Part shown: positions 9,333-29,061 of the stretch, piece by piece
Layout: the number at the start of each line of letters is the position of its first letter
How positions within the stretch are numbered: position 1 is the first letter of the stretch
NCBI GenBank assembly: GCA_016869215.1
Contig: VGEP01000032.1
Coordinates: 1-47,049, forward strand
Direction of reading: 5' to 3'
Source of the DNA: Alphaproteobacteria bacterium
GTDB taxonomy: Bacteria > Pseudomonadota > Alphaproteobacteria > Rhizobiales > Xanthobacteraceae
Length of the DNA stretch: 47,049 bases
Notes under the pieces: model-generated
Seen by the model: the letters and a program-made list of their open reading frames with translations, nothing else
What the model was told of the DNA's origin: nothing
The model's database searches: none
Program-made: the position numbers and the translations under genes

Positions 9333-9950
9333 TCAGCGCGGCCGCAATTCGATTTGCGCAGCGGCCAGACGCCGGTAGAGATTGCGTTGGCGCATCACTG
9401 GCCACCACCGGTACAGAAATATTTCCATCGGCCGCCAGTTGGCGACCCAGCCGAGAATGATGAGTCCCTCGTTGAAGAACCGGCTCACGTAGCCTTCGCC
9501 CAGTTGATATGCCAGCAACTGCCCGGCAATCACGCAGGTCGCCAGCACCGACAGGCCGATGGCGAGCGAGATGCGGCCGACCCGAAACAGGTCGCGAATA
9601 TCGAGATCGGTCCGGTTCGCGCGATAGCTGAAGTAGGTGTTGAACGCTTCATGCAGGATCGGCGCGATGGGGCTCGCAGCCTCCTCCGGCGGAAGGTGAA
9701 GCACAATTCGGATCGGATGATGGGTAGACAACTCGCGCGCCCAGCCGACGATATAGTCCTCGGCGGTTTTGGACAGGTCCCGTTGCGGAAACGGGAACGG
9801 GTCGAGGGCGTCGAACAGATGCGCAATCCGCTCGGCCCGCAGCTCGATGGTGGATCCGGATACTTCGCCTGCCAACTCAGCCTCACCCACAATCCCGCCG
9901 AAGCGGGGTTTTCGGGCAACAACTGTGGCCATTCCGCCGCGCGCGGCCAT
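9333..9950 (-). CDS. Uncharacterised membrane protein with two TM helices
   Basis: A 205-residue protein with a soluble N-terminal half (about 1-120) and two hydrophobic segments near residues 128-150 and 160-175, followed by a basic tail rich in Arg and Trp. It is not recognised. The motif DPFPFPQRDLSKTAEDYIVGW resembles small conserved hypothetical proteins of Hyphomicrobiales. The start may instead be the Met at 9932. It is convergent with the PrpD gene and divergent from the P1B-type ATPase, but no functional link is evident. Confidence 0.6.
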   Translation of the reverse strand: MAARGGMATVVARKPRFGGIVGEAELAGEVSGSTIELRAERIAHLFDALDPFPFPQRDLSKTAEDYIVGWARELSTHHPIRIVLHLPPEEAASPIAPILHEAFNTYFSYRANRTDLDIRDLFRVGRISLAIGLSVLATCVIAGQLLAYQLGEGYVSRFFNEGLIILGWVANWRPMEIFLYRWWPVMRQRNLYRRLAAAQIELRPR

Positions 9951-10050
9951 TGAGCCACATCAATCGGACCGCCGATTTCACGGCCTAAGTAACGCGTGGT
10001 GTAATCTCGCCAATCGGCGGCCGTTCGGTCCGCCGACCCGGCAACCCGAC

Positions 10051-11943
10051 ATGCGCGCCGACATCGACCTGCGACACATCCTGGTTTCAGTGCCCGCGGC
10101 CGGCCTCGTCCTGGGGCTGGCGCTGTCCGCGTTGGGGCGCGGCGAGTGGTCCGGCGCGATCTGGGCCGCGTCCACCCTGCCGGTGCTGATCGCTCTCCTG
10201 TTCGAAATCGTCTCGAGCCTGCGCCGCGGCGACGTGGGTCTCGACATCGTCGCCGCGTTGTCCATGACGGCGGCGCTGGTGTTCGGCGAATACCTCGCCG
10301 CCGCCGTGGTCGCGCTGATGTACGCCGGCGGCCAGTATCTCGAAAGCTTCGCCGAGCGTCATGCGCGCAAGGAGATGACCGCGCTGCTGTCGCGCGTGCC
10401 GCGCAGCGCGGTCCGGCACCGCGATGGAGCGCTGGAGGAGATCACGATCGACGACATCGCGCCCGGCGACCGCCTGCTGATCCGCCAGGGCGACGTGGTG
10501 CCGGTCGACGGCGACGTCGCCGGCGGCTTGGCCGTGCTCGACCAGTCGGCGCTGACCGGCGAATCGCTGCCGGTGCAGCGCAAGGCCGGCGAGCCGGTGA
10601 TGAGCGGTTCGACCAATGCCGGCGCGGCGTTCGATCTGGTCGCCACCCGCCGCGCCGCGCAAAGCACCTACGCCGGGATTGTCCGGCTGGTCGAGGCAGC
10701 GCAGAAGTCGAAGGCGCCGATGGCGCGGCTCGCCGATCGTTATGCGATCGTGTTCCTCGCGCTGACCGTCGCCATTGCAAGCGCGGCGTGGTTCATGACC
10801 GGCGATCCGATCCGCCTTGTCGCAGTGCTGGTCGTCGCAACGCCCTGCCCGCTGATCCTCGCGGTGCCCGTCGCAATCGTGTCCGGACTGTCCCGCGCCG
10901 CCCGCTACGGCATTCTGGTCAAGGGCGGCAAGGCCCTGGAGGGACTGGCGCGCGTGCGCGTGCTGGTGCTCGACAAGACCGGCACGCTCACGCACGGCCG
11001 CGCCCGCATCGTCGCCGTACGAACCGTCGCCGGATTGGACGCCGGCGATGTGCTGCGGCTCGCGGCCTCGCTCGACCAGGCGTCCAAGCACATCATCGCG
11101 GAAACCATCGTGGCGCAGGCGCGCGAGCGCGGCCTCCAGCTTTCGATCCCGGGCAATGTCGCCGAAACACCCGGCGAAGGCATCGAGGGGATCGTCGACG
11201 GCCGGCGTGTGATCGTCGGCGGGACCCGTTTTGTGGCCAACAGGCTGGGCGGCACACCGGGGCTGCCGCCCTGGCCGCAGACACCCGGCGCAGTCACGGT
11301 ATCGGCCGCGGTGGACGGCAAGCTGGCAGGCGAGCTTGTGCTGGCCGACGAGTTGCGCAGCGGCACCGAGGCCCTGCTCAAGCGCCTGCGCGAGCTTTCT
11401 TTCGAACGCATCGTGCTGGCGACCGGCGACCGCCGCGAGGTCGCTGACGCCGTGGTGGCCGGCCTCGACATCGACGCCGTGCGCCCGGAACTGACGCCCG
11501 ACCAGAAGGTCATGGTCGTGCTGGCCGAGCGCAAGAACGGCCCGGTGATGATGGCCGGTGACGGCGTCAACGACGCGCCGGCGCTGGCCGCCGCTGACGT
11601 GGGCCTCGCCATGGGCGCGGGCGCGGCCGCCTCCGCCGAGGCCGCCGACGTGGTGCTGCTGGTCGACCGGCTGGACCGCATCGTTCCAGCGGTCGAGATC
11701 GCACACCGCTCGCGGCGCATCGCGCTGGAAAGCGTTTACGCCGGCATCGGATTATCGGTGGCGGGAATGATTGCGGCAGCGTTCGGGTACATCACGCCGG
11801 TGCAGGGCGCGCTGCTGCAGGAGGCGATCGACGTGGCGGTGATCCTGAACGCGCTGCGCGCGCTCAAGGGGCGGGCTTACCCCGCAGATCCTTCACCCGC
11901 ACAGCTTTCCCCTGCGACCGCGGCAGCTCGCCCGGCATCTTGA
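10051..11943 (+). CDS. P1B-5-type heavy-metal ATPase
   Basis: A 630-residue P-type ATPase without an N-terminal metal-binding (HMA) domain. It has TGES (about 169), TPCPL in the transport helix (Cys 266), the phosphorylation site DKTGT (Asp 308), GDGVNDAPA, and a last-helix motif QEAIDVAVILNALR (Gln about 590). TPCP together with QExxDxxxILNALR is the signature reported for subgroup P1B-5, whose studied member (Nia of Sinorhizobium) exports nickel and iron. The hemerythrin-like tail seen in some P1B-5 proteins is missing; only a short Pro/Ala tail follows. The start is the ATG at 10051 before MRADIDLRH. The last 80 bp overlap the convergent paaK. Confidence 0.85.
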   Translation: MRADIDLRHILVSVPAAGLVLGLALSALGRGEWSGAIWAASTLPVLIALLFEIVSSLRRGDVGLDIVAALSMTAALVFGEYLAAAVVALMYAGGQYLESFAERHARKEMTALLSRVPRSAVRHRDGALEEITIDDIAPGDRLLIRQGDVVPVDGDVAGGLAVLDQSALTGESLPVQRKAGEPVMSGSTNAGAAFDLVATRRAAQSTYAGIVRLVEAAQKSKAPMARLADRYAIVFLALTVAIASAAWFMTGDPIRLVAVLVVATPCPLILAVPVAIVSGLSRAARYGILVKGGKALEGLARVRVLVLDKTGTLTHGRARIVAVRTVAGLDAGDVLRLAASLDQASKHIIAETIVAQARERGLQLSIPGNVAETPGEGIEGIVDGRRVIVGGTRFVANRLGGTPGLPPWPQTPGAVTVSAAVDGKLAGELVLADELRSGTEALLKRLRELSFERIVLATGDRREVADAVVAGLDIDAVRPELTPDQKVMVVLAERKNGPVMMAGDGVNDAPALAAADVGLAMGAGAAASAEAADVVLLVDRLDRIVPAVEIAHRSRRIALESVYAGIGLSVAGMIAAAFGYITPVQGALLQEAIDVAVILNALRALKGRAYPADPSPAQLSPATAAARPAS

Positions 11944-13189
11944 CGGCGACCTCGCACGTCACGCCGATGCGCGATTTGATGTGATGCGCGACGTCGCGGG
12001 CGATGCTTGCGCGGCTTGCGTCGTCGGCGGGCGCGCCTGCGGCCATTTCGATCTCCAGCGTCATGGCGTCGAGCGATCCTTCGCGCTTCAGCTCGATCTG
12101 ATAGTGCGGCGCGACGCCGGGGAACCCGATCAACAACGCCTCGACCTGCGAAGGATAGACGTTGACGCCCCGGATGATCATCATGTCGTCATCGCGGCCG
12201 GTGACGCGCATGATGCGCACGTGGCTGCGGCCGCAGGCGCAGGGCGAGCGCTCCAGCCGCGTGATGTCGCGGCTGCGATAGCGCACCATCGGCAGCGCCT
12301 GCTTGGTGAGCGTGGTGATCACCAGTTCGCCCGCCTCGCCGTCCTTCACCGGTTCCAGGGTATTGGGATCGATCACCTCGAACAGGAAATGGTCCTCCCA
12401 GCCGTGCAGGCCGTCCTGCGCCACGTCGCATTCGACCGCGACGCCCGGCCCGATGATTTCGGACAGACCGTAGAGATCGACCGCCTTGATGCCGAGCCGC
12501 TCCTGAAGGTCGCGGCGCATGGCGTCGCTCCACGGCTCGGCGCCGAAAATGCCGAGCCGCACCGGCAGCTTGCGAACGTCGACGCCCATGCCTGCGGCGA
12601 CCTCGGCGATGTTAAGCGCATAGGACGGTGTGGCGCAAAGCACTTGCGCGCCAAGGTCCTGCAGCAGCGTGACCTGACGCTCGGTCATGCCGCCGGACAC
12701 CGGCACCACCGAGCAGCCGAGCCTTTCTGCACCGTAGTGAACGCCAAGCCCGCCGGTGAACAGGCCGTAGCCGTAGGCGTTGTGCAGAATGTCGCCAGGC
12801 CGCGCGCCGGCGCAGGCGATGCAGCGCGCCATCAGGTCGGACCAATTGTCGACGTCGCCCTGGGTGTAGCCGACCACGGTGGCCTTGCCGGTGGTGCCGG
12901 ACGACGCGTGCAGCCGCACCACCTGCTCGCGCGGCACCGCGAACAGCCCGAACGGATAGGCGTCGCGCAGATCGGCCTTCACCGCGAACGGGAAACGCAC
13001 GATGTCGTCGAGCGAACTGAGATGCTCGGGCTTGACCTTGGCGGCGTCGAACTTGGCCCGTACATGCGGGACCCTGGCATAGGCCGTCTCGACCGTGGTC
13101 TTGAGGCGCGCGAGCTGCAGCGCGGCAAGCTCCACGCGCGGCATGCACTCGGCCTTGCGGTCGTAGAAGAAGGTGTCGGCCCGGCTCAT
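11864..13189 (-). CDS. paaK: Phenylacetate-CoA ligase-like AMP-forming enzyme
   Basis: A 441-residue adenylate-forming ligase. It has the ATP-binding loop SSGTTGKATVVGY, LYGLSE in the core, a Cys-rich SPCACGRSH segment, the adenylation hinge TGRDDDMMIIRGVNVYPSQ, and a C-terminal lysine in RSQGKAVRV. This order and length match PaaK, which converts arylacetates to CoA thioesters with ATP. ATG 13189 is used; the open frame extends upstream but overlaps the divergent gene's leader. It is back-to-back (about 60 bp) with a DpgC-like dioxygenase gene whose known relative acts on a phenylacetyl-CoA, so the two probably act in series. No other paa genes are nearby, so the substrate may be a substituted arylacetate. 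Confidence 0.85.
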   Translation of the reverse strand: MSRADTFFYDRKAECMPRVELAALQLARLKTTVETAYARVPHVRAKFDAAKVKPEHLSSLDDIVRFPFAVKADLRDAYPFGLFAVPREQVVRLHASSGTTGKATVVGYTQGDVDNWSDLMARCIACAGARPGDILHNAYGYGLFTGGLGVHYGAERLGCSVVPVSGGMTERQVTLLQDLGAQVLCATPSYALNIAEVAAGMGVDVRKLPVRLGIFGAEPWSDAMRRDLQERLGIKAVDLYGLSEIIGPGVAVECDVAQDGLHGWEDHFLFEVIDPNTLEPVKDGEAGELVITTLTKQALPMVRYRSRDITRLERSPCACGRSHVRIMRVTGRDDDMMIIRGVNVYPSQVEALLIGFPGVAPHYQIELKREGSLDAMTLEIEMAAGAPADDASRASIARDVAHHIKSRIGVTCEVAVKMPGELPRSQGKAVRVKDLRGKPAP

Positions 13190-13248
13190 GGCGGCGGTAT
13201 AGTAACAGCGAGATGGGGGCCGTGAACCAGACGTGAGGAGTGAAATCG

Positions 13249-14658
13249 ATGGCCGTCCGCGAACCCCGATGGGATACAAGGCCGCTTGCGGCGGCGGGGA
13301 TTGCCGCAAAAGACATCAATGCCTGGCTCAAGGCCGAACCGCTTAGGACCCGGAGCTTTGCCGCCGATTGCAAGGCCTATTCCGCGTTCTGGCGGAAGTC
13401 CACTGCGCTACTTGCGCAGTTGCCGCCCCCCGCGCGCCGGCAAGACCGCGACCGATCCGCCGCCATCACCATCGATTTTGCGGCGCGCGATGCACGCGCG
13501 CGCTTTCTGTATGCCCACGCCGATGCGGTCTACGACAAGCTGACTGCCAAGCGAACACGCCATGTCCGCATCGAGGAACTGGCCGCAGCCGCCGCAAAGC
13601 TTGTGCCGAACCTTGTGCCTTCGCATAAGCAGATCGCCGCCGAGGACGGACTGAAGCAGAGCGAAAAGGCAGGATTGGAAATCGATCAGGGACTATTCGT
13701 TTCAGCAATGCTGCGAAGCCGGCAATCCGGCACACATCTCTGCCACGCCATGCTGCTGCCGCGACAGGAAGCTTACAACGCGCTGCCGAGGTATCTCAAA
13801 AGTGACAAAGCCGAATTCCCTGGCGCTTCAATCGAACGGCGCGGCAAGGCCGCGATCCTCACCTACCGGAATCCACGTTTTTTGAACGCCGAGGATCAGA
13901 CCACGCTCGACGGGTTCGAGACCTGCGTCGATCTTGCGCTGCTGGACGGCAGAGTGGAGGTCGCCGTGCTGCGCGGCGGTATCGTCGAGAATCCGAAATA
14001 TGCGGGCCGACGCTTGTTCGGCTCCGGCATCAACCTGACGCACCTCTATCATGGGCGCATCCCGTTTCTCTGGTACCTCACGCGCGATCTCGGCTACGTC
14101 AACAAGCTCTATCGTGGCATTGCGGTGCCGCATGACGCGCCGCCCGACGAGTTTGGCGGCCAGACCATTGAGAAGCCGTTCATCGCCGCGGTCGAGGGCT
14201 TTGCCATCGGCGGCCACTGCCAGGTGCTGCTTGCGGTCGACTATGTGATCGCGGAAAAGACCGCGTTTATGACGCTGCCCGCCCGCAAGGAGGGCATCAT
14301 CCCCGGCGCCGCCAACATGCGGCTGCCGCGTGCGGTCGGAGACCGCGTTGCACGCCAGGCGATTCAGTACGAGCGGCGGCTGGAATGCGACAGCCCGGAA
14401 GGCCGCCTGATTTGCGACGAGATCGTAGAGGCGGGCGCGATGGACGCCGCCATCGAGAGGGTGGTCAAGGGACTCACCAGCTCCGGCGTGGTCAGCGCGG
14501 CCTCCAACCGCCGCGCATTCCGCATCACGCAGGAGCCGCTCGATATGTTCCGAAATTACTTTTCGGTCTATGCGCGTGAGCAAGCCTATTGCCACTTCAG
14601 CCCGGCGCTGATCTCGAACCTGGAGCGTTATTGGGACGCGGCAAACCGCAAGCCGTGA
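13249..14658 (+). CDS. DpgC-like cofactor-independent acyl-CoA dioxygenase (crotonase fold)
   Basis: A 469-residue protein of the enoyl-CoA hydratase superfamily with the long N-terminal helical domain (about 1-190) unique to the DpgC group, not found in ordinary hydratases. Segments ALLDGRVEVAVLRGG, GRRLFGSGINLTHL, DLGYVNKLYRGI, AIGGHCQVLL and EGIIPGAANMRLPR follow the DpgC order. The Gln in GGHCQ corresponds to the catalytic-pocket Gln of DpgC. DpgC converts 3,5-dihydroxyphenylacetyl-CoA with O2 and no cofactor to the arylglyoxylate during glycopeptide antibiotic synthesis. ATG 13249 has GAGGAG 8 nt upstream; a GTG at 13240 is the alternative. Pairing with the PaaK-like ligase suggests catabolic oxidation of an arylacetate. 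Confidence 0.8.
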   Translation: MAVREPRWDTRPLAAAGIAAKDINAWLKAEPLRTRSFAADCKAYSAFWRKSTALLAQLPPPARRQDRDRSAAITIDFAARDARARFLYAHADAVYDKLTAKRTRHVRIEELAAAAAKLVPNLVPSHKQIAAEDGLKQSEKAGLEIDQGLFVSAMLRSRQSGTHLCHAMLLPRQEAYNALPRYLKSDKAEFPGASIERRGKAAILTYRNPRFLNAEDQTTLDGFETCVDLALLDGRVEVAVLRGGIVENPKYAGRRLFGSGINLTHLYHGRIPFLWYLTRDLGYVNKLYRGIAVPHDAPPDEFGGQTIEKPFIAAVEGFAIGGHCQVLLAVDYVIAEKTAFMTLPARKEGIIPGAANMRLPRAVGDRVARQAIQYERRLECDSPEGRLICDEIVEAGAMDAAIERVVKGLTSSGVVSAASNRRAFRITQEPLDMFRNYFSVYAREQAYCHFSPALISNLERYWDAANRKP

Positions 14659-15072
14659 CTACTTCTTCAGCGCGTCGCGTTTCGCCGCCTTGGCCTTCAA
14701 CCGCTCGACGGTCTTGGCGACGTCCACGACAAAGCGGCCGTGCGTGCCGGCGCTGATCGTGTCCAGCTCGTCCTTGGCCGAGACCTCGAAATTCACCTTC
14801 CGGCCGTCGATGGCCGTGACTTTCACTGCGATCTCCACCGTCATGCCGGGCAGCGACGCGGCCTGGTGCTTCACCGACACTTCGGTGCCGACCGAGTCCT
14901 CGCCCGGATCGGCGTGTTCGAGGATCAGGTCGCGGCAGGTGCGTTCGATGTCGAGGATCATGGACGGCGTGGCGTAGACCCTCGCGTCCTCGCCCATGAA
15001 CCCGATGGTGCGGTCGCGGTCGATGACGATGTGGCGGACCTTGGAGGCGCCTGGCTTGAGGCTCGGCTTCAT
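14659..15072 (-). CDS. FlK-like hotdog thioesterase
   Basis: A 137-residue single hotdog-fold protein. A Thr in ATPSM, a Glu in DIERTC and a His in VKHQAAS match the Thr-Glu-His catalytic set of the fluoroacetyl-CoA thioesterase FlK family. It would hydrolyse a small acyl-CoA in the cytoplasm. The start at 15072 has GGGAG about 11 nt upstream and lies 16 bp after the isomerase stop, so it closes the Gfo/DUF993/isomerase operon. Its stop abuts that of the DpgC-like gene with no gap. A genuine role in fluoroacetate resistance is not indicated; many homologues act on other acyl-CoAs. Confidence 0.75.
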   Translation of the reverse strand: MKPSLKPGASKVRHIVIDRDRTIGFMGEDARVYATPSMILDIERTCRDLILEHADPGEDSVGTEVSVKHQAASLPGMTVEIAVKVTAIDGRKVNFEVSAKDELDTISAGTHGRFVVDVAKTVERLKAKAAKRDALKK

Positions 15073-15088
15073 TCTTGAATTCGCTCCC

Positions 15089-15919
15089 TCACACCACCGT
15101 CCGGTGCCGATCCAGGCAGATGCGTAGCACCTCGGCGGGATCGCGCTTCCACCAGTTCTCGGCGGAGAAAATCTCCACGTCGCAGTGGCCGTCATAGCCG
15201 GTCGCCTCGACCATGGCGCGGATGTCGCGCAGGCCGATGACGCCGTCGCCCGGCATGCCGCGGTCGAGCAGCAGGTCCTTCGTGGGCACCAGCCAGTCGC
15301 AGACGTGATAGGTGATGATGCGTTTGCCGGCGCGTGCGATCTCACGGCGCAGGTTCGGATCCCACCAGACGTGATAGACGTCGACCGCGAGGCCGAGACC
15401 CTCTCCCAGTTCGTCGCAGAGGTCGTTGGCGTGCGCCATGGTGTTCACGCAGGCGCGGTCGGCGGCATACATCGGATGCAACGGTTCGAGCGCCAGCGGC
15501 ATCTTCACCGTGCGCGCATAGTCCAGAAACGCGGCGAGCCCGTCGCGAACCTGCCGCCGCGCGCCGTCGATATCGCGTGAGCCCTTCGGCAGCCCGCCCG
15601 CGATCAACACCAGCGATCCCGCGCCGATGGCCACAGCCTCGTCGACCGCGCGCTTGTTGTCGTCGAGCGCGGCGCGCCGCCCGGCCTCGTCGGCCGCAGG
15701 AAACATGCCGCCACGGCAGAGACAAGTTACGGTGAGATTCTGTGCGCGGATCAGCTTGCCGGCGCGCTCGACGCCGCAGGCCTGTACGATGTCGCGCCAT
15801 GGCGCGATGGCGGCGATGCCGGCACGCGCGCAGCCCTCGACCAGTTGCTCCAGCGACCACGGTTTCACCGTCGCCGAGTTGATCGCGAGCAGCTTCGAGT
15901 CGTTCGAAAGGTCGCGCAT
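15089..15919 (-). CDS. Sugar phosphate isomerase/epimerase (TIM barrel)
   Basis: A 276-residue xylose-isomerase-like TIM-barrel protein. The metal-binding pattern is visible: LALEPLHP (Glu on strand 6), LAVDVYHVWWDP (Asp and His), TYHVCDW and CDVEIFS (C-terminal Glu). These enzymes isomerise or epimerise keto-sugars or related polyols. The ATG overlaps the DUF993 stop (TGATG), implying translational coupling. The conserved association with a Gfo/Idh/MocA dehydrogenase and DUF993 suggests a sugar or cyclitol degradation route in which the dehydrogenase acts first. The substrate is unknown. Confidence 0.85.
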   Translation of the reverse strand: MRDLSNDSKLLAINSATVKPWSLEQLVEGCARAGIAAIAPWRDIVQACGVERAGKLIRAQNLTVTCLCRGGMFPAADEAGRRAALDDNKRAVDEAVAIGAGSLVLIAGGLPKGSRDIDGARRQVRDGLAAFLDYARTVKMPLALEPLHPMYAADRACVNTMAHANDLCDELGEGLGLAVDVYHVWWDPNLRREIARAGKRIITYHVCDWLVPTKDLLLDRGMPGDGVIGLRDIRAMVEATGYDGHCDVEIFSAENWWKRDPAEVLRICLDRHRTVV

Positions 15920-17082
15920 CAGGCTTCCACGCCGCGCACCGCCATGACGAGACGCATGCGGTGCGACGACAATTCGGGATCGATCAGGAGGCCCGCGACG
16001 TCGGCAAGCCGGAACAGTTCGGCGAGATGCAGCGTCGAGCGCGTGCTTTCCTGGCCGCCGACCATGATGAAGTGGTCCTGCAGTCCGTTGAGGTAGGCCA
16101 TGAACACGACGCCGGTCTTGTAGAAGCGGGTCGGCGCTTTGAAGATGTGCCGCGACAGCGGCACCGTCGGCGCGAGGATGTCGTGGAACAGCGCCGAATT
16201 GCCGTGGCTGAACGCGTCAAGGGCGGCCGACGCCGCCGGCGCGATGGCGTCGAAAATGCCGAGCAGCGCATCCGAATAGCCCTGCTCGTCGCCCGCGATC
16301 AGCTCGGCATAGTTGAAATCGTCGCCGGTGTACATGCGAACGCCCTGCGGCAGGCGCCGCCGCATGGCGATTTCCTTGTCCTTGTCGAGCAGCGAAATCT
16401 TGATGCCGTCGACCTTGGCATGGTTGGCGGTGAGCACGTCGATGGCGACGCTCATCGCCTGCGTGTGGTCCTTGTGACCCCAATAACCTTCGAGCGCGGG
16501 ATCGAACATCTCGCCGAGCCAATGAACGATCACCGGCTCCTTCACCTGGCTGAGGATGCGGTCGTAGACCTTCATGTAGTCGTCGGGCGACTTCGCGGCC
16601 TTCACCAGCGCGCGGCTCGCCATCAGGATAATGCGGCCGCCGAGCTTCTCGACCGCCGCGCACTGCTCCTCGTAGGCGCGGATCACGTCGTCGATAGTGA
16701 TGCCGGGCTTCGCCTCCAGGTGGTCGGTGCCGACGCCCGAAGCGATCATGACGCCCGGATATTCGCGTGCGGCGTCGAGACTGCGCCGGATCAATTCGAG
16801 CGAGGTCGGCCAGTCCATGCCCATACCGCGCTGGGCCGTGTCCATGGCCTCCGCCACGCCGAGGCCGAGCGACCAAAGATGGCGGCGGAACGCGATGGTC
16901 GTGTCCCAGTCGATGGCGGAATCGATCCATGGCTCGCGGTCGGCGAGCGGATCGGCGACCACGTGCGCTGCCGCATAGGCGACGCGGTTGAAGGGGGGCG
17001 TGGCCGTCGGGAAATTCCGCGGCGGGCGCGTGAGATAGGGCGTCAGCCGGCCGCCTGCGGTGGGAAGATTGAGCGTGGGCAC
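15919..17082 (-). CDS. DUF993 family protein (DHDPS/aldolase-like TIM barrel)
   Basis: A 387-residue protein recognised as DUF993, a relative of the dihydrodipicolinate synthase/aldolase TIM barrels. Typical segments are RHLWSLGLGVAEAMDTAQRGMG, SGVGTDHLE, EPVIVHWLGEMFDPALEGYWG and GIKISLLDK, where the Lys could be the Schiff-base residue. Lyase or aldolase chemistry on a keto-acid or keto-sugar is likely, but no member is biochemically defined to my knowledge. It sits between the Gfo/Idh/MocA gene (63-bp gap) and the isomerase (1-bp overlap), forming the core of a three-gene catabolic set. Confidence 0.8.
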   Translation of the reverse strand: MPTLNLPTAGGRLTPYLTRPPRNFPTATPPFNRVAYAAAHVVADPLADREPWIDSAIDWDTTIAFRRHLWSLGLGVAEAMDTAQRGMGMDWPTSLELIRRSLDAAREYPGVMIASGVGTDHLEAKPGITIDDVIRAYEEQCAAVEKLGGRIILMASRALVKAAKSPDDYMKVYDRILSQVKEPVIVHWLGEMFDPALEGYWGHKDHTQAMSVAIDVLTANHAKVDGIKISLLDKDKEIAMRRRLPQGVRMYTGDDFNYAELIAGDEQGYSDALLGIFDAIAPAASAALDAFSHGNSALFHDILAPTVPLSRHIFKAPTRFYKTGVVFMAYLNGLQDHFIMVGGQESTRSTLHLAELFRLADVAGLLIDPELSSHRMRLVMAVRGVEA

Positions 17083-17145
17083 CTGGAAAATCTCACTACA
17101 CGACGGAACTCAACCGGCTTCAGGCTGAGGACGGAGAACGCATTC

Positions 17146-18297
17146 TCACACTTTCAACGCCGGGATGTCGATCCAGCGGCGCTCCTTCCAGCTCTTGTGG
17201 GCGGCCTCGACCAATTGCAGGCCCTTGGCGCCCTCCAACAGCGTCCATTTGAACGGCGCGTCCTCGTAGAGGTGCCGGATGAACATCTCCCATTCGGTCT
17301 TGAAGCCGTTGTCGTAGGCGCCGAGGCCGGGCACCTCCGACCAGGTTTCGAAGAACTTGATCGGCTGCGGCACATCCGGGTTCCACACCGGGCGCGGCGT
17401 GTTGACCCGCGCCTGGCTCCAGCATTTCTGCAGTCCCGCCACCGCCGAGCCCAGCGTGCCGTCGACGTGAAACGTCACGAGGTCGTCGCGGCGCACGCGC
17501 GTGCACCAGGAGCTGTTGACGTGTGCGATGGCGCCGCCCTTGAGCTGGAACGTCGCGTAAGCCGCGTCGTCCACGTCATTGGTATAGGGCTTGCCGTTCT
17601 CGTCCCAGCGCTTGGGAATGTGCGTCGCGCCGAGGCAGGTGACGCTCTCGACCTCGCCGAACAGATTGTCGAGCACGTAGCGCCAGTGGCACAGCATGTC
17701 GAGAATGATGCCACCGCCGTCCTTCCTGCGGTAGTTCCACGACGGGCGCTGTGACGGCGACCAGTCGCCCTCGAACACCCAGTAGCCGAACTCGCCGCGC
17801 ACCGACAGGATGCGTCCGAAGAATCCTGAGTCGATCAGCACCTTAAGCTTAAGCAGCCCCGGCAGAAACAGCTTGTCCTGCACGACGCCGTGCTTGACGC
17901 CGGCCTTCTTCGCCGCGCGCACCAGATCGAGCGCATCCTTCAGCGTATCGGCCGTCGGCTTCTCGCAGTAGATGTCCTTGCCCGCCTTCATCGCCTTCTT
18001 GAGCAGGCCGGCGCGAAGCTGCGTGGTCGCGGCGTCGAAGAACAGCGTATCCTTCTTGTCCTTGAGCGCGGCGTCGAGGTCCGTGGTCCAGCGCGACAGG
18101 CCGTGCGCCTTGCAGAGCTGCTGGAGCTTCTCGGCGCTACGGCCGACCAGGATCGGGTCGGGCATCACGCGGTCGCCGTTCTTCAGCGCCACGCCGCCTT
18201 CGTTGCGGATCGCAACAATAGAGCGGATCAGATGCTGGTTCATCCCCATGCGCCCGGTGACGCCGTTCATGATGATGCCGAGCCGCTGCTGCGCCAT
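17146..18297 (-). CDS. Gfo/Idh/MocA family oxidoreductase
   Basis: A 383-residue NAD(P)-dependent dehydrogenase. The N-terminal Rossmann region has GVTGRMG, followed by the family motif CEKPTAD (about 109-115) and a C-terminal substrate domain with GGGIILDMLCHW, where the Asp and His form the usual catalytic pair. Such enzymes oxidise sugar or cyclitol hydroxyls. It is the first structural gene of the operon, and its start lies 28 bp from a perfect 16-bp palindrome, the likely operator of the upstream TetR-type regulator. Its pairing with DUF993 and a sugar isomerase is a recurring arrangement in rhizobia (from memory, not searched here). Confidence 0.85.
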   Translation of the reverse strand: MAQQRLGIIMNGVTGRMGMNQHLIRSIVAIRNEGGVALKNGDRVMPDPILVGRSAEKLQQLCKAHGLSRWTTDLDAALKDKKDTLFFDAATTQLRAGLLKKAMKAGKDIYCEKPTADTLKDALDLVRAAKKAGVKHGVVQDKLFLPGLLKLKVLIDSGFFGRILSVRGEFGYWVFEGDWSPSQRPSWNYRRKDGGGIILDMLCHWRYVLDNLFGEVESVTCLGATHIPKRWDENGKPYTNDVDDAAYATFQLKGGAIAHVNSSWCTRVRRDDLVTFHVDGTLGSAVAGLQKCWSQARVNTPRPVWNPDVPQPIKFFETWSEVPGLGAYDNGFKTEWEMFIRHLYEDAPFKWTLLEGAKGLQLVEAAHKSWKERRWIDIPALKV

Positions 18298-18311: not shown

Positions 18312-18340
18312 GGTTACGCCGTAAGTAACCAATTGGTTAC
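18312..18340. promoter_or_regulatory. Probable TetR-family operator with three half-sites
   Basis: GTAACCAATTGGTTAC at 18325-18340 is a perfect 16-bp palindrome. An additional inverted half-site GGTTAC at 18312-18317 pairs with the proximal GTAACC across 7 bp. The cluster lies 15-43 bp upstream of the Gfo/Idh/MocA start and overlaps the TAA stop codon of the TetR gene. Position and symmetry fit an operator bound by that regulator, and overlapping half-sites would allow two dimers to bind. Binding is inferred. Confidence 0.75.
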
Positions 18341-19041
18341 AATCGGGCGGCCTTGTTGGCAAGCGGTTTTTCCGGCCGCAGGAAGCCGAGGATAACCGCG
18401 GAAATGTGCCGCCCCCAGGCCCGCAGCTCCGGCTGCGCCGTCAGGTCGCGGGCGAAGATCGCCGACAGCGTCCAGCGGTTCGACAGGTAGAAGATGCCGA
18501 GCGAGGCGATGGAAATGTAGAGGTGCACCGGGTCGACGCCCGTGCGGAACGTGCCGCTCGCCGCGCCGCGCTTGAGCACATCGGAGATCGCCGAAACCAG
18601 CGGCGAATGCAGCTCCAGCACGCGCTGCGACTTCTTGAGGAACTTCGCGCGGTGCAGGTTCTCAGTGCTGAGGATGCTCAGAAATTCCGGGTGTGCGAGG
18701 AAGTAGTCCCAGGTGAACGCGACCAGCCGCTCGATCGCTTTTTCCGGCGCGAGATCGGCCAGTTGCAATCCGGCTTCGGACGAGCGGATGCCGACATAGG
18801 CGCTCTCCAGCACGGCCCGGTAGAGCCCATCCTTGTCGCCGAAGTAGTGGTAGATCATCCGCTTGTTGGCGCCGGAGCGCCGCGCGATGGCGTCGATCCG
18901 CGCGCCCGCATAGCCCTTATCGGTGAATTCGCTCACGGCGGCAGCGAGGATCGCGGCGCTGGTGCGCTCGGGATCGCGCGGTCCGGCGCCGCGGGATTTT
19001 TTCGCGCTCCGGGCGGTGCTTCTGTGCTGCGTCGCCGTCAT
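18337..19041 (-). CDS. TetR/AcrR family transcriptional regulator
   Basis: A 234-residue regulator. After a basic N-terminal arm, residues about 25-75 form a TetR helix-turn-helix (AILAAAVSEFTDKGYAG, then NKRMIYHYFGDKDGLY). The C-terminal ligand domain contains HPEFLSILSTENLH, similar to TetR_C regulators of catabolic genes. It lies just upstream of, and in the same direction as, the Gfo/DUF993/isomerase/thioesterase genes, with a palindromic site in the 39-bp gap. It probably represses that operon until a pathway intermediate binds. The start at 19041 is the only good Met before the arm; the pita-bread gene diverges from it 78 bp away. Confidence 0.9.
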   Translation of the reverse strand: MTATQHRSTARSAKKSRGAGPRDPERTSAAILAAAVSEFTDKGYAGARIDAIARRSGANKRMIYHYFGDKDGLYRAVLESAYVGIRSSEAGLQLADLAPEKAIERLVAFTWDYFLAHPEFLSILSTENLHRAKFLKKSQRVLELHSPLVSAISDVLKRGAASGTFRTGVDPVHLYISIASLGIFYLSNRWTLSAIFARDLTAQPELRAWGRHISAVILGFLRPEKPLANKAARL

Positions 19042-21349: not shown

Positions 21350-22342
21350 CTACACGTGCTGCCCGTCGCCGAGCGGGATGTCGCGCATGGTCGACAGCGC
21401 GAACAGATCCTCGATCTTCAGCCGCCGGTCGGTCAGGCCGTGCTCGTGGGTGTATTGCAGCAGCGCTTCGAGCGACGGGCGGTTCTTCTCAATGCCGTAG
21501 GGATACCAGTCCTCGCCGATGATCGCCTTCTCCTCCTCGATCATCGGCTGCAGCCAGGCGAACGAGGCCTTGGGCGAGCCGGTGTCGGAGAGGCTGCGGT
21601 AGCACTTGTCCTTGGCGCGGCTCAGCGCCTGGTAGAGACTCTGCGCGACCCACGGATCGTTCTCGTAGACGTCCTTCCTGATCACCACCGTGTGCATGAT
21701 CGGGTAGATTTTCGTGCGCTTGTAATATTCTTTCTCGACCTCGGCGTAGTTCGGAAACAGCCGCCGCACCTTGGGCGAGCCGCGCCGGAACGACAGCGGA
21801 TTGTTCGCGGTGATGAGGAAGTCGATCTCGCCGCGCTCCAGCATGTCGCCAAGTTCGGTGCCGGGCGGCGCCTGCGTGAGCTTGATATCGGACGGCAGCG
21901 CGCGCCCGAGCCGGTCGGTGCGGCCCTGCACCCATTCGACGTCGGTCGGCTTCACGCCGAATTCGTGCTGCATCACGCCGCGCATGTAGACCGCCGCGGT
22001 CATGGAATATTCCGGCACGCCGCCGCGCTTGCCCTTGAGGTCCGAGCCCTTCTCGATGCCCTTCGTCGTGTTGATGAAGAAGTAGCCGTGTCGGAACACC
22101 CGCGACGGATAAACCGGGATCGCGACGAACGGCGGATCCTTCAGGCTGCGCATCGTCGTCGTGTTCGACAGCGACATCTCGCAGGCCTGGAACTCGTTGT
22201 ATTGCAGCATGCGCCAGAAAATCTCGGCGGGCTGCATGTTGAGATAGTTTAGATCGATGCCGTCGGGCTGGATCGAACCGTCGCGCAGGCCCTCGGTGCG
22301 GTCGTAGGGACCGCAGGCGAAATTCAGACGCAGCTTGGCCAT
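21350..22342 (-). CDS. 4,5-dihydroxyphthalate decarboxylase-like protein (Pht5 family), copy A
   Basis: A 330-residue protein with a periplasmic-binding-protein type II fold by motif: FACGPYDRTEGL at the N-terminus, VAIPVYPSRVFRHG, DLKGKRGGVPEY, GEIDFLIT and YPIMHTVV. The same blocks occur in annotated 4,5-dihydroxyphthalate decarboxylases and in NMT1-like solute-binding proteins. No signal peptide is present, which favours a cytoplasmic enzyme over a transport receptor. It is the last gene of the minus-strand run FAD subunit, 2Fe-2S subunit, Mo subunit, cupin, Pht5-like. It may therefore decarboxylate the hydroxylated product of that molybdenum enzyme (inference). Two paralogues lie at 27.2 and 44.2 kb. 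Confidence 0.75.
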   Translation of the reverse strand: MAKLRLNFACGPYDRTEGLRDGSIQPDGIDLNYLNMQPAEIFWRMLQYNEFQACEMSLSNTTTMRSLKDPPFVAIPVYPSRVFRHGYFFINTTKGIEKGSDLKGKRGGVPEYSMTAAVYMRGVMQHEFGVKPTDVEWVQGRTDRLGRALPSDIKLTQAPPGTELGDMLERGEIDFLITANNPLSFRRGSPKVRRLFPNYAEVEKEYYKRTKIYPIMHTVVIRKDVYENDPWVAQSLYQALSRAKDKCYRSLSDTGSPKASFAWLQPMIEEEKAIIGEDWYPYGIEKNRPSLEALLQYTHEHGLTDRRLKIEDLFALSTMRDIPLGDGQHV

Positions 22343-23267: not shown

Positions 23268-25547
23268 CTACTCCGCCGCTTTCCGCCCGGCCTGCTGCAG
23301 CAGTTCCCAGATATAGGCCGGCGACAGCGGCAGCTGCCGCGGCTGCACGCCGAGCGAAGACAGCGCGTTCGCCACCGCGTTGGCCATGCAACCACCGGCG
23401 GCAATGATGCCGCCTTCGCCCGCGCCCTTGGCGCCGAGCGGATTGATCGGCGACGGATACTTGTCCAGCACCACGCCGCGCAGGTTTGGGAAATCGCTGG
23501 CGAGCGGTAGCAGATAGTCGGCGAGCGAGCCGGTGAGAATCTGGCCGTTCTCGTCGTACTTCAGGTCCTCAAGTACCGCGCCGCCGAGGCCCTGCACCAG
23601 CGAGCCGATCATCTGGCCCTTCACGGTGAGCGGATTGATGGCGCGGCCGACGTCCTGCACCACGACGTAGTCGATAATCTCGATGCGGCCGAGTTTCGGA
23701 TCGACCGTGATGTGTGCGACGTGCGACCCGTAGCTGTAAGTGTGCTTCTTGTTCAGGAACACGCCTTCCTGCGTCAGCCCGGCAAACTCCCTGAGCGGAA
23801 CCGATTTGCCGCCGCCCGTCAGCTTGTCCTCGTCGAGCGTCACCGCATTCGCATCGCAACCGAGGCGCTTGGCGCCCGCCTCGCGCAGCGCCGCGAGGAA
23901 ATTGTTTGCGGCGTCGAGCACCGCCGAGCCGCCCATCACCGTCGAGCGTGAATGATAAGCGCCGTAGCCGTCGCTCACATACGCCGTCGAGCCGTGATGG
24001 ACGTGGCGGATGCGCTCGATGGAGACTTCCAGCGCGTCGGCCGCGATCTGCGCGAAGATCGTCTCCACGCCTTGCCCGACCGACGATGTGCCGAGGTAGA
24101 GCGAGATCGTGCCGTCGCCGTTCACCTCAAGCCGCGCGGTCTCCTTCGGGCCGGCAGCGCCGCCCTCGATGAAGCAAACCACGCCGATGCCATGGTACTT
24201 GCCGTCGACCAACTTGCCCTGGAGCTTGGACACCCGCGGCCAATCGATCTCCTGCAACGCGCGCTCCAGCGTTTCGGGATAGTGGCCGCTGTCATATTCG
24301 TCGACCGCGTTGGTCGGCTGCACGGTCGCGATCGGATAGGGCTGCTCCTTCGCAGTGATCAGGTTCCTTCGTCGCATGTCGATGCGGTCGATGCGAAGCT
24401 CTTCGGCGATCATATCGATCATGCGTTCGAGGAAGAAATTGGCCTCGAAGCGGCCCGGCCCGCGATAGGTACCGACCGGCGTCTTGTTGGTCATCCAGAG
24501 CGACGAATCGATCTTGACGTGCGGCACGCGATACGGGCCCGCCATGAACTGCGATACGTTGCGCGCACCGACCGCACCGTTGGTGCGCATGTAGGCGCCC
24601 ATGTCGGTGTGGACCTCGCCGCGGATCGCGAGGATGGTGCCGTCGCGCGCGCAGGCGACTTCGAGGATCGCCTCCTCCTCGCGCGCATGGTTCATCGCTA
24701 TCAGGTTCTCGCGGCGGTCCTCGATCCATTTCACCGGACGGCCGGTGTGCCTGGCCGCGAACGGGATCAGGAAGTCTTCCGGATAGAACTCGCCGCGCGC
24801 GCCATAGCCGCCGCCGACGTCGTTCTCGATCATCTCGATCTGCTCGACGGGGAGCCCGATCTGCGCCGAGAGAATCCGGCGGTTGAAGAACGGGACCTTC
24901 GCGGCGCCATAGATCGTGAGCATACCCTTGGCCGCGTCCCACGTGGCCATCACGCCGCGCGGCTCCATGGTCAGGCCGTAGTGGCGGCCGGTTCGCAGCC
25001 GCTCTTTGCGGACGTAAGGCGCGCTGGCAAAGGCCGCATCGGCGTCGCCCTTGCGCGATTCGAACACCATCGAGCGGTTGGTGCCCTGCTTGTCGAACAG
25101 CACGCTGTTGTTCCGCTGCGCCACCGTCCAGTCGGCGACCGCCGGCAGTTCTTCGATTTCCACTTCGATGGCATCGAAAGCGTCCTCGGCCTGCGCCGCA
25201 GTCGCGGCCAGCACCACGGCGATCGGCTCGCCGACGTAGCGCACTTTTTCGTGGGCTATCGCAGGCTGCTCGAACGGTTTGAACTCGGGCAGCGGCTGCA
25301 ACCGCATCGGCACGATCGGCGGGCCGCCCGGCATGTCGGCCGCGGTGATGACCGTGTGCACACCCGGCCGCTTCAGCGCCGCCGACGTGTCGATGCTCTT
25401 GATCTTTCCGTGCGCGACGGAACTCCGCAGGATCGCGGCGTGCAGCAGACCCGGCAGCGCGACGTCGTCGACATATTCGCCGCGCCCGCGCAGGAAGCGC
25501 AGGTCCTCGCGGCGTTCCATCGGCTGGCCGATGAACGTGTTCTTCAT
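23268..25547 (-). CDS. Molybdenum hydroxylase large (Mo cofactor) subunit, CoxL/XdhB type, set 1
   Basis: A 759-residue xanthine-dehydrogenase-family molybdopterin subunit. The N-terminal GQPMERREDLRFLRGRGEYVDD, DVGGGYGARGEFYPED, the active-site loop GTYRGPGR (about residue 360) and the catalytic Glu in KGAGEGG (about 707) are present. The loop is not the AYxCSFR of true form I CO dehydrogenase, so it is a hydroxylase of an organic substrate such as an N-heterocycle, purine or aldehyde. It follows the 2Fe-2S subunit gene by about 9 bp and forms a complete three-subunit enzyme with 25557-27018. Electrons would pass from Mo-MCD through the 2Fe-2S centres to FAD. Confidence 0.9.
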   Translation of the reverse strand: MKNTFIGQPMERREDLRFLRGRGEYVDDVALPGLLHAAILRSSVAHGKIKSIDTSAALKRPGVHTVITAADMPGGPPIVPMRLQPLPEFKPFEQPAIAHEKVRYVGEPIAVVLAATAAQAEDAFDAIEVEIEELPAVADWTVAQRNNSVLFDKQGTNRSMVFESRKGDADAAFASAPYVRKERLRTGRHYGLTMEPRGVMATWDAAKGMLTIYGAAKVPFFNRRILSAQIGLPVEQIEMIENDVGGGYGARGEFYPEDFLIPFAARHTGRPVKWIEDRRENLIAMNHAREEEAILEVACARDGTILAIRGEVHTDMGAYMRTNGAVGARNVSQFMAGPYRVPHVKIDSSLWMTNKTPVGTYRGPGRFEANFFLERMIDMIAEELRIDRIDMRRRNLITAKEQPYPIATVQPTNAVDEYDSGHYPETLERALQEIDWPRVSKLQGKLVDGKYHGIGVVCFIEGGAAGPKETARLEVNGDGTISLYLGTSSVGQGVETIFAQIAADALEVSIERIRHVHHGSTAYVSDGYGAYHSRSTVMGGSAVLDAANNFLAALREAGAKRLGCDANAVTLDEDKLTGGGKSVPLREFAGLTQEGVFLNKKHTYSYGSHVAHITVDPKLGRIEIIDYVVVQDVGRAINPLTVKGQMIGSLVQGLGGAVLEDLKYDENGQILTGSLADYLLPLASDFPNLRGVVLDKYPSPINPLGAKGAGEGGIIAAGGCMANAVANALSSLGVQPRQLPLSPAYIWELLQQAGRKAAE

Positions 25548-25556
25548 CGGCAGCCC

Positions 25557-26021
25557 CTACTTCTTGTACGCCGCGCGCGCGTCGAGCACCGCTTCGACGA
25601 TGCCGATGTAGCCGGTGCAGCGGCAGATGTTGCCCGACAGCACCTCGCGCACCCGGTCGGCATCGCAATCGGGCTCCTCGGTGAGCAGCGCATGCGCCGT
25701 GGTGATGAAGCCCGGTGTGCAGAATCCGCATTGCAGCGCGTGGTGCTTGCGGAAGGACTTCTGCAGCGGCGTCAGGTCCGCGTCGTTCGACAGGCCCTCG
25801 ACCGTCACGACCTTCGCGCCCTCGGCCTGCACCGCCAGCATCAGGCAGGCGCGCACCGCCTCGCCGTCGACCAGCACCGTGCAGGCGCCGCAGACGCCGT
25901 GCTCGCAGCCGACGTGCGTGCCGGTAAGCCGCAATTCGTGGCGAAGGCAGTCGGCGAGCGTCATGCGCGGCTCGACGTTCACGCTGACGGGCTTGCCGTT
26001 GACTTCGAACTTGGTGGTCAT
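25557..26021 (-). CDS. Molybdenum hydroxylase [2Fe-2S] subunit
   Basis: A 154-residue CoxS-type protein. The plant-ferredoxin-like cluster ligands are in CEHGVCGACTVLVDG with a following Cys (RACL). The second cluster is in CGFCTPGF and GNICRCTGY near the C-terminus. All eight cysteines appear intact. It relays electrons from the Mo subunit to the FAD subunit. ATG 26021 (MTTKFEV) is preferred over 26033. The stop is 9 bp before the Mo-subunit start, indicating coupling. Confidence 0.93.
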   Translation of the reverse strand: MTTKFEVNGKPVSVNVEPRMTLADCLRHELRLTGTHVGCEHGVCGACTVLVDGEAVRACLMLAVQAEGAKVVTVEGLSNDADLTPLQKSFRKHHALQCGFCTPGFITTAHALLTEEPDCDADRVREVLSGNICRCTGYIGIVEAVLDARAAYKK

Positions 26022-26037
26022 GCGCCAACCCATCCCC

Positions 26038-28159: not shown

Positions 28160-29061
28160 CGGCTCACCAGCACGATCCCCGCAGCCACCAGCAGCGCCGC
28201 AGTGCCCTTCTGCATCAGGTCGCGCGGGGCAAGGCTCTCGTGGCTGACTCGCGGCCAGAGCAGGGTCAGCACCACGCCGAAGACAAACACAAACAGCGTC
28301 GTGGTCGAGCCGATGGCCTGCACCACCGCGAGCGGCGCGAAGATCAGCGCGTAGCGGTTGCCGAGTGCGCCGCCGAGGTTGACCAGTTCGTTCGAGGCGT
28401 TGATCGCGACCATCGCCACCGGGTGCTCGCGGAACAGCCGGAAGAACTCGCGGCGATGGTTGCCGATGCTGAGGTACGCGAACCCGAAGATCGCCTCGCC
28501 CGCGAACATCCAGAACGTCGTCGCCCAGAATTCCTCCTTCACCGCGAACACCTTGAAGATCAAGGTCGACAGCGACATCACAAAACCGCAGCACAGCATC
28601 AGCAGCGCGAGCCGCCAGCGGAACGGCTCCGTCCGCCGCGCGCCGACCGACACGAACAGGATGCCGCCGAGGATCAGCGCGCAGCCTCCGAACTGCGACC
28701 CCGACAGCGTTTCGCTCAGGACCAGATACCCGAGCGCATAGCCGAACAGCGGCGAGGCCTGGAAGAACGGCGCAACCACCGACGCCTCGTGGCCCTGCAA
28801 GGCGCGCAGGTAAAAGAAGATCGCCGCCATATAGAGCAGGCCCGACAGCGTCATCAGTGCGACGCTTTGCAGGTCGCGGTACAGCACCGAGGGATCGAAG
28901 TACGCGATCGCCGGCATGAGCGCGAGGCCCATCAGCGCGGTGAAGATCAGCAGGATGCCGACGTCGGTGTTCTTGAAGTAACGCTCGACCAGGTACTTGT
29001 CCAAATGCGTGGAGATCGCCCATAGCACCGGGCCCGAGAGCGCGAAGCCAAGCCAGTTCAT
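28156..29061 (-). CDS. EamA/DMT-family transporter
   Basis: A 301-residue membrane protein with about ten hydrophobic helices in two EamA-like repeats. LDKYLVERYF in the first helix region, SPLFGYALGYLVLSETLSGSQ at the end of repeat 1 and TTTLFVFVFGVVLTLLWPR at the end of repeat 2 fit drug/metabolite exporters. Its ATG overlaps the TGA of the upstream Mo-subunit gene (ATGA), so it is translationally coupled to that enzyme. It could move the substrate or product across the inner membrane. Confidence 0.8.
   Translation of the reverse strand: MNWLGFALSGPVLWAISTHLDKYLVERYFKNTDVGILLIFTALMGLALMPAIAYFDPSVLYRDLQSVALMTLSGLLYMAAIFFYLRALQGHEASVVAPFFQASPLFGYALGYLVLSETLSGSQFGGCALILGGILFVSVGARRTEPFRWRLALLMLCCGFVMSLSTLIFKVFAVKEEFWATTFWMFAGEAIFGFAYLSIGNHRREFFRLFREHPVAMVAINASNELVNLGGALGNRYALIFAPLAVVQAIGSTTTLFVFVFGVVLTLLWPRVSHESLAPRDLMQKGTAALLVAAGIVLVSR

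Follow-up and report, generated by a model that had tools for sequence, protein, structure and literature searches.

A DpgC-like protein paired with a PaaK-like ligase suggests a candidate aerobic route for arylacetates outside the Paa pathway in Xanthobacteraceae

We analysed a stretch of 47,049 nucleotides, hereafter the window (contig VGEP01000032.1, positions 1-47,049, assembly GCA_016869215.1, a soil bacterium, Alphaproteobacteria bacterium, of the Xanthobacteraceae), in which the gene of a PaaK-like aryl(acetate)-coenzyme A (CoA) ligase stands beside that of a homologue of DpgC, the 3,5-dihydroxyphenylacetyl-CoA 1,2-dioxygenase of vancomycin-type antibiotic synthesis. Genome comparison gives good support to the view that these genes form a catabolic, non-Paa arylacetate module. 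We somewhat favour a specific route for it, in which an arylacetate, most likely phenylacetate, would be converted to its CoA ester, oxidised with O2 to an arylglyoxylate, and passed on as benzoyl-CoA to the Box pathway. This route would stand in for the Paa epoxidase. Homology, active-site residues, gene linkage and co-occurrence across genomes are what we observe directly; from them we infer the reactions, the substrates and the enzyme acting on the arylglyoxylate. The features concerned are:

11864..13189, minus strand: PaaK-like aryl(acetate)-CoA ligase, 441 amino acids, ATG at 13189 and stop at 11864 (TIGR02155; PF00501 with PF14535; PDB 2y4o)
13190..13248, no strand: divergent intergenic region of 59 base pairs, read from the sequence
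13249..14658, plus strand: DpgC-like protein, presumed cofactor-free arylacetyl-CoA dioxygenase, 469 amino acids, ATG at 13249 and stop at 14658 (NF042432; PDB 2np9)
14659..15072, minus strand: FlK-type hot-dog thioesterase, about 137 amino acids, convergent with the DpgC-like gene (PF22636)

The ligase and DpgC-like genes lie at the positions given in the original prediction and are divergent, with 59 base pairs from ATG to ATG; a GTG at 13240, in the list of open reading frames, is also a possible start of the DpgC-like gene. The intergenic region presumably houses the start regions of both genes. The prediction described a pair, and the ligase does adjoin the DpgC-like gene; there is, however, a third neighbour, the FlK-type thioesterase, which matches PF22636 with 112 bits on 14659-15087 and whose start we set at the first ATG of the translation.

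The distribution of the dpgC-like gene across 198 genomes of the family (43 with the gene and 155 without it, some of them incomplete) clearly shows that it and paaA, the gene of the Paa epoxidase, seldom share a genome. The p values of these family-wide comparisons ignore relatedness, which inflates them. We found paaA in 2/43 genomes with dpgC (G142 and G165) and in 76/155 without it (p = 1.3e-8). Within eight genera, picked for holding both kinds of genome and counted without those genomes that lacked any listed gene, two genomes carried both genes where 6.0 were expected (p = 0.0025). The 120 genomes that lack paaA show the complementary pattern, with dpgC in 32 of the 45 that have PaaK and in 9 of the 75 that do not (p = 5e-11). 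Genomes with dpgC also carry boxB more often (38/43 versus 84/155, p = 3e-5; 34/43 versus 84/155, p = 0.005, when four fragments scoring under the cut-off, all in genomes with dpgC, are set aside), and the same holds for an IorA-type 2-oxoacid oxidoreductase (38/43 versus 43/155, p = 5e-13). The genes paaA and boxB are independent of each other (boxB in 47/78 genomes with paaA and 75/120 without, p = 0.77). The control gene pcaH occurred in 17/43 versus 80/155 genomes (p = 0.17; 15 versus 79 above the cut-off, p = 0.08), so the pattern does not reflect a general wealth of aromatic genes.

Because dpgC complements paaA and links to boxB, we favour phenylacetate itself over the hydroxylated phenylacetates named for the tests in the original prediction, with which the conserved Glu189/Arg254 pair described below would nevertheless be compatible. 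A related reading keeps the chemistry and changes the substrate to hydroxyphenylacetyl-CoA or indole-3-acetyl-CoA, so that the product would not go to benzoyl-CoA and boxB and IorA would merely share genomes with dpgC. This is consistent with the retention of Glu189 and Arg254, the pocket pair of DpgC, with the five dpgC genomes that have no boxB, and with the position of the window PaaK in a clade apart from the paaA-linked PaaKs. We nonetheless regard it as unlikely, though the most serious of the alternatives, given that dpgC nearly excludes paaA within genera as well as across them, that it fills the gap in PaaK-containing genomes without paaA, that several PaaKs encoded beside dpgC are nested among those linked to paaA, and that box genes adjoin dpgC in one locus, L057.

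The window's own genome (5.15 Mb, with a listed completeness of 100%) fits the family-wide pattern. PaaA was not found in it by a search that matched 4/14 control genomes, 3 of them above the cut-off; the ligase therefore cannot feed the canonical Paa route, and the prediction of a route distinct from that of the Paa epoxidase is borne out to this extent. Contig 13 encodes BoxB (G000:C13:82303-83724, 898 bits, cut-off 499), BoxC (932.6 bits, cut-off 712.3) and a protein of the benzoate-CoA-ligase family. On contig 7 an IorA/IorB pair stands beside another benzoate-CoA-ligase-family gene and a TRAP transporter, and its IorB scores 657 bits against a cut-off of 348.

The DpgC-like protein is a full-length homologue of DpgC that includes the N-terminal domain, as had been predicted; ordinary crotonases have no such part. 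It covers positions 3-408 of the 412 in NCBIfam model NF042432 with 428.6 bits (the next-best NCBIfam family, DpgD, reaches 68.4), and its residues 53-460 of 469 align to 29-433 of the 440 in the DpgC chain of PDB 2np9 (E 3.8e-100), with 45.8% identity over the aligned residues. As the score lies under the curated cut-off of 530, we call the protein DpgC-like and not DpgC. It is the sole full-length copy in its genome, where the 10 other matches are short and score at most 45.7 bits.

We numbered residues by the DpgC chain of 2np9 and counted their conservation in a set of 48 loci (L numbers) that includes the window. The two positions that hold the catalytic glutamates of hydratases are Gln299 and Ala319 in DpgC; they correspond to Q325, the predicted pocket Gln, and A345 of the window protein, and both are kept in 48/48 homologues. 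In nine rows of ordinary crotonases (seven of the own genome, where one gene accounts for two rows, and two of relatives; L004, one of eight own-genome loci, gave no row), the first position is Glu in 7/9 (otherwise Ile and Asn) and the second in 6/9 (otherwise Phe, Phe and Gly). With Gln and Ala in place of both glutamates, the DpgC-like protein should therefore not be a hydratase. The residues that we take to form the pocket pair (Glu189 and Arg254) and the oxyanion site (Ile235 and Gly296) are all present in the window protein; Gly296 is found in all 48 homologues and each of the other three in 44. The O2 pocket, which we assume to consist of Ala319, Ile324 and Val425, keeps its first two members and has Leu in place of Val425, as do 47/47 homologues with a residue there, and Ala298 of DpgC is Cys in 48/48. 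Judged by its sequence, the protein is like DpgC at most sites of presumed importance, and its pocket is slightly changed: it shares full-length homology, the Gln/Ala pair, Glu189, Arg254 and Gln299, and the oxyanion positions, and it differs in its sub-threshold score and at positions 425 and 298. To our knowledge, cofactor-free activation of O2 by the crotonase fold has been characterised only for the DpgC of antibiotic synthesis.

It could be argued that the protein is a crotonase-fold enzyme of another kind, acting on arylacetyl-CoA without O2, for example by hydrolysis or isomerisation. The score under the DpgC equivalog cut-off would agree with this, as would the two positions that differ from DpgC throughout the homologues and the long branch, of about 2 changes per site, that separates DpgC itself from the rest in a tree of 47 rows (which leaves out L069 and L084, both cut by contig ends). 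A full-length match at 46% identity and the invariant Gln/Ala replacement of the catalytic glutamates argue for an oxygenase instead, and a separate thioesterase gene already adjoins; a non-oxygenase thus seems improbable to us.

Glu189 and Arg254 are missing together in four of the 48 homologues (L071, L082, L083 and L084), where Ile or Met replaces the former and His the latter; these four offer a natural test of the roles of the pair. They are not the loci with the other type of ligase described below, and we rejected a co-variation of ligase type with pocket residues. An AlphaFold2 model made with the sequences of the window protein and of its named relatives L014 and L015 (metagenome-assembled Hyphomicrobiales) had a mean predicted local distance difference test score (pLDDT) of 42 and was discarded as unusable. 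L016 and L017 were rejected as relatives of the full protein, being short crotonase matches only.

The ligase scores 598.7 bits against the PaaK equivalog TIGR02155, under the curated cut-off of 646.3, hence "PaaK-like". It has the domain pair PF00501 and PF14535, and its closest solved structures are the phenylacetate-CoA ligases PDB 2y4o (E 9e-151) and 2y27. It is the only close PaaK of its genome, the next match being 30% identical at 115 bits. We compared the window with 47 further dpgC neighbourhoods, where the gene calls come from a simple script based on codon usage, which gives some genes the wrong label. A PaaK homologue lies near dpgC in 28/48 loci (26 within 1.5 kb and 2 within 2.5 kb), which come from related genomes and are not 28 independent cases; for any one gene, a PaaK would lie within 2.5 kb by chance with a probability of about 0.0017, assuming 1.2 PaaKs per 4.6 Mb. 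The arrangement varies, with PaaK upstream on the opposite strand in 10 loci, upstream on the same strand in 12, and downstream on the same strand in 6. Another type of acyl-CoA ligase lies within 1.5 kb of dpgC in six loci, none of which has PaaK. The FlK thioesterase is found near dpgC in 12/48 loci, the window included, and a second type of thioesterase in three more.

We traced the association in a tree of 60 PaaKs. The label "dpgC-adjacent" needs 6 changes (gains or losses), at least 3 of them forced by well-supported branches, and the PaaKs so labelled form two classes with a deep split between them. Some members of the second are nested among PaaKs encoded no more than about 10 kb from paaA; the clade of the window PaaK is separate from the 20 paaA-linked PaaKs. 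The dpgC-like gene has therefore been paired with different PaaKs. Of the paaA-linked PaaKs, the tree samples 20, drawn from 75 genomes that have both genes; another 13 are of the window's type, again a subset. L091, L092 and L094 sit on long branches, and the truncated PaaK of L056 was left out. The link between ligase and oxygenase that had been proposed for the window holds as a functional pairing, seen in 28/48 loci and in two PaaK lineages; the reaction and substrate of the oxygenase are still what we infer.

We can outline how such a module might work. The PaaK-like ligase would turn an arylacetate, most likely phenylacetate, into arylacetyl-CoA. The DpgC-like enzyme would then take a proton from the alpha carbon, and the resulting enolate would react with O2, using neither metal nor cofactor, to give CoA and an arylglyoxylate (phenylglyoxylate). 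Oxidative decarboxylation of this product to benzoyl-CoA would probably fall to an IorAB-type or other thiamine-diphosphate (ThDP) 2-oxoacid enzyme encoded elsewhere; alternatively, the arylglyoxylate may leave through benzoate and a benzoate-CoA ligase, again reaching benzoyl-CoA. The Box epoxidase pathway would degrade the benzoyl-CoA, and recycling or proofreading of aryl-CoA may be the task of the FlK-type thioesterase.

Several dpgC neighbourhoods hold genes of the kinds this outline calls for. In L057, boxC, boxB, paaK, dpgC and the FlK gene stand in a row. IorA/IorB genes adjoin dpgC in L075 and L078, genes for E1 alpha, E1 beta and E2 subunits of a set resembling pyruvate dehydrogenase do so in L090, and a ThDP enzyme gene in L066. 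Such 2-oxoacid enzymes are what an arylglyoxylate would need. We rejected a ThDP decarboxylase as the general partner, since it was seen only in L066 (by dpgC) and L052 (by PaaK), both most like ThDP proteins of the acetolactate synthase type. IorA was likewise rejected as a direct neighbour, being so placed in only 2/48 loci; the support for IorA is its co-occurrence.

Other observations, besides the inflated family-wide p values, weigh against the proposed route. The scanned window proteins include none that we recognised as acting on an arylglyoxylate, and each kind of 2-oxoacid enzyme adjoins dpgC in one or two loci only. The IorA proteins score 285 (own genome) and 288 bits, where the cut-off for the characterised alpha subunit is 650.9. 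IorA and boxB are linked to each other over the family, with IorA in 74/122 genomes that have boxB and 7/76 that do not (p = 7e-14), and they are so without dpgC too. The five dpgC genomes without boxB include both of those with IorA/IorB beside dpgC (L075 and L078). No PaaK was found in the fetched flanks of 20/48 dpgC loci, some of which end at contig ends, and 10/43 genomes with dpgC have no PaaK match at E 1e-90; in six of these ten a different acyl-CoA ligase is encoded close to dpgC, accompanied in two by IorA/IorB. PaaKs of the window's class also exist apart from dpgC, where they adjoin FlK (L146, L147 and L149), IorA/IorB (L147) or a benzoate-CoA-ligase homologue (L149). The retention of Glu189 and Arg254 in 44/48 homologues may mean a hydroxylated ring. 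Finally, IorAB is described as an anaerobic enzyme that converts phenylpyruvate to phenylacetyl-CoA (PMC9765128); its link to dpgC may therefore lie upstream, at an arylpyruvate.

IorA and boxB also occur together in 28 genomes with neither dpgC nor paaA, and IorA/IorB may serve benzoyl-CoA formation more widely.

The proposed route resembles known systems in part. With the canonical aerobic Paa pathway (PaaK followed by the PaaABCDE epoxidase) it would share a PaaK-type CoA ligase as the first enzyme and the need for O2; unlike that pathway, it has no PaaA in the genome, and ring epoxidation of phenylacetyl-CoA would give way to oxidation of the side chain. With the anaerobic route of Thauera and Aromatoleum it would share the intermediates phenylacetyl-CoA, phenylglyoxylate and benzoyl-CoA, as that route is given in PMC9765128. 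There, according to the same source, a molybdenum-iron-sulfur oxidoreductase carries out the first oxidation, whereas in the proposed route O2 would be used by a cofactor-free oxygenase of the crotonase fold and the benzoyl-CoA would enter the aerobic Box pathway. The proposed route would in effect be an O2-dependent counterpart of the anaerobic one.

The DpgC system itself differs in its source of substrate, which in the window would presumably be made by the ligase. No type III polyketide synthase family (Pfam) was matched among the window proteins scanned. The original statement that no polyketide genes are present thus stands for these 34 proteins, which are not every open reading frame; no search for dpgA, B and D was made elsewhere in the genome. 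That the pair, like DpgC, is biosynthetic and feeds an arylglyoxylate or arylglycine into a secondary metabolite would be in keeping with the DpgC enzymes named in the consulted part of PMC3849588, which are biosynthetic. We consider this very improbable, as dpgC correlates with catabolic genes and, in relatives, stands near genes for transporters, acyl-CoA ligases and 2-oxoacid enzymes and near box genes, in addition to the lack of a type III polyketide synthase match among the 34 window proteins.

Matches to the dpgC-like gene (E 1e-40 or better, own genome included) were found in 6/11 genomes of the genus and 43/198 of the family. Further out, the DpgC model NF042432 matched 7/297 genomes of an order sample at E 1e-50, none above the curated cut-off, and the protein itself matched in 3/398 genomes of a phylum sample at E 1e-50. 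These counts show that the group is concentrated in one family. In genome G605, from another family of the same class, no PaaK lay in the fetched stretch and two-component genes adjoin dpgC. DpgC, introduced in the original prediction as known from actinobacterial antibiotic synthesis, is not confined to actinobacteria, since PMC3849588 describes for Xanthomonas a predicted set of dpgA-D genes bearing XALc locus tags.

A 2026 survey of phenylacetate pathways (PMC13186573) counts the occurrence of PaaK without the epoxidase among other configurations, and the name DpgC is absent from its text. In an open-licence library we found neither a catabolic DpgC nor an aerobic route from phenylacetyl-CoA to phenylglyoxylate; subscription papers were mostly outside this scope, which makes it weak evidence of absence. 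The name dpgC is used for an unrelated gene in PMC10384211.

It is possible, though we hold this more tentatively than the route itself, that PaaK and the Box enzymes, together with a cofactor-free DpgC-like dioxygenase for phenylacetyl-CoA and a 2-oxoacid oxidoreductase, make up an undescribed aerobic pathway for phenylacetate (and phenylalanine) that takes the place of the Paa epoxidase across a sizeable share of a single alphaproteobacterial family. If so, an enzyme of antibiotic synthesis would have a large catabolic sister group, offering many new members for studying how the crotonase fold tames O2. Such a pathway would account for PaaK ligases where the Paa epoxidase is missing, allow the annotation of phenylacetate and phenylalanine use to be corrected, and provide an aerobic connection between the phenylacetate and benzoyl-CoA pathways.

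Around these genes the window holds further features of note. The 3' end of a P-type ATPase open reading frame (9769-11943, plus strand) and that of the convergent PaaK-like gene share 80 base pairs. Beyond the thioesterase lies an operon-like triad (15089-18297, minus strand) that encodes a xylose-isomerase-like TIM barrel protein, a DUF993 protein (PF06187, 615 bits) and a Gfo/Idh/MocA oxidoreductase, together with a TetR regulator (18337-18960, minus strand). A protein of 330 amino acids (21350-22342, minus strand) matches no Pfam or NCBIfam family at E 1e-3. Three molybdopterin large subunits of the xanthine dehydrogenase type are encoded at 23268-26033 (minus strand), 29058-31355 (minus strand) and 32840-35164 (plus strand), the first adjoining the gene of a 2Fe-2S protein. 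The window also encodes a DUF3500 protein (37119-38483, plus strand), and in a relative a DUF3500 gene (L065, 7701-9068, minus strand) lies directly downstream of the dpgC-like gene.

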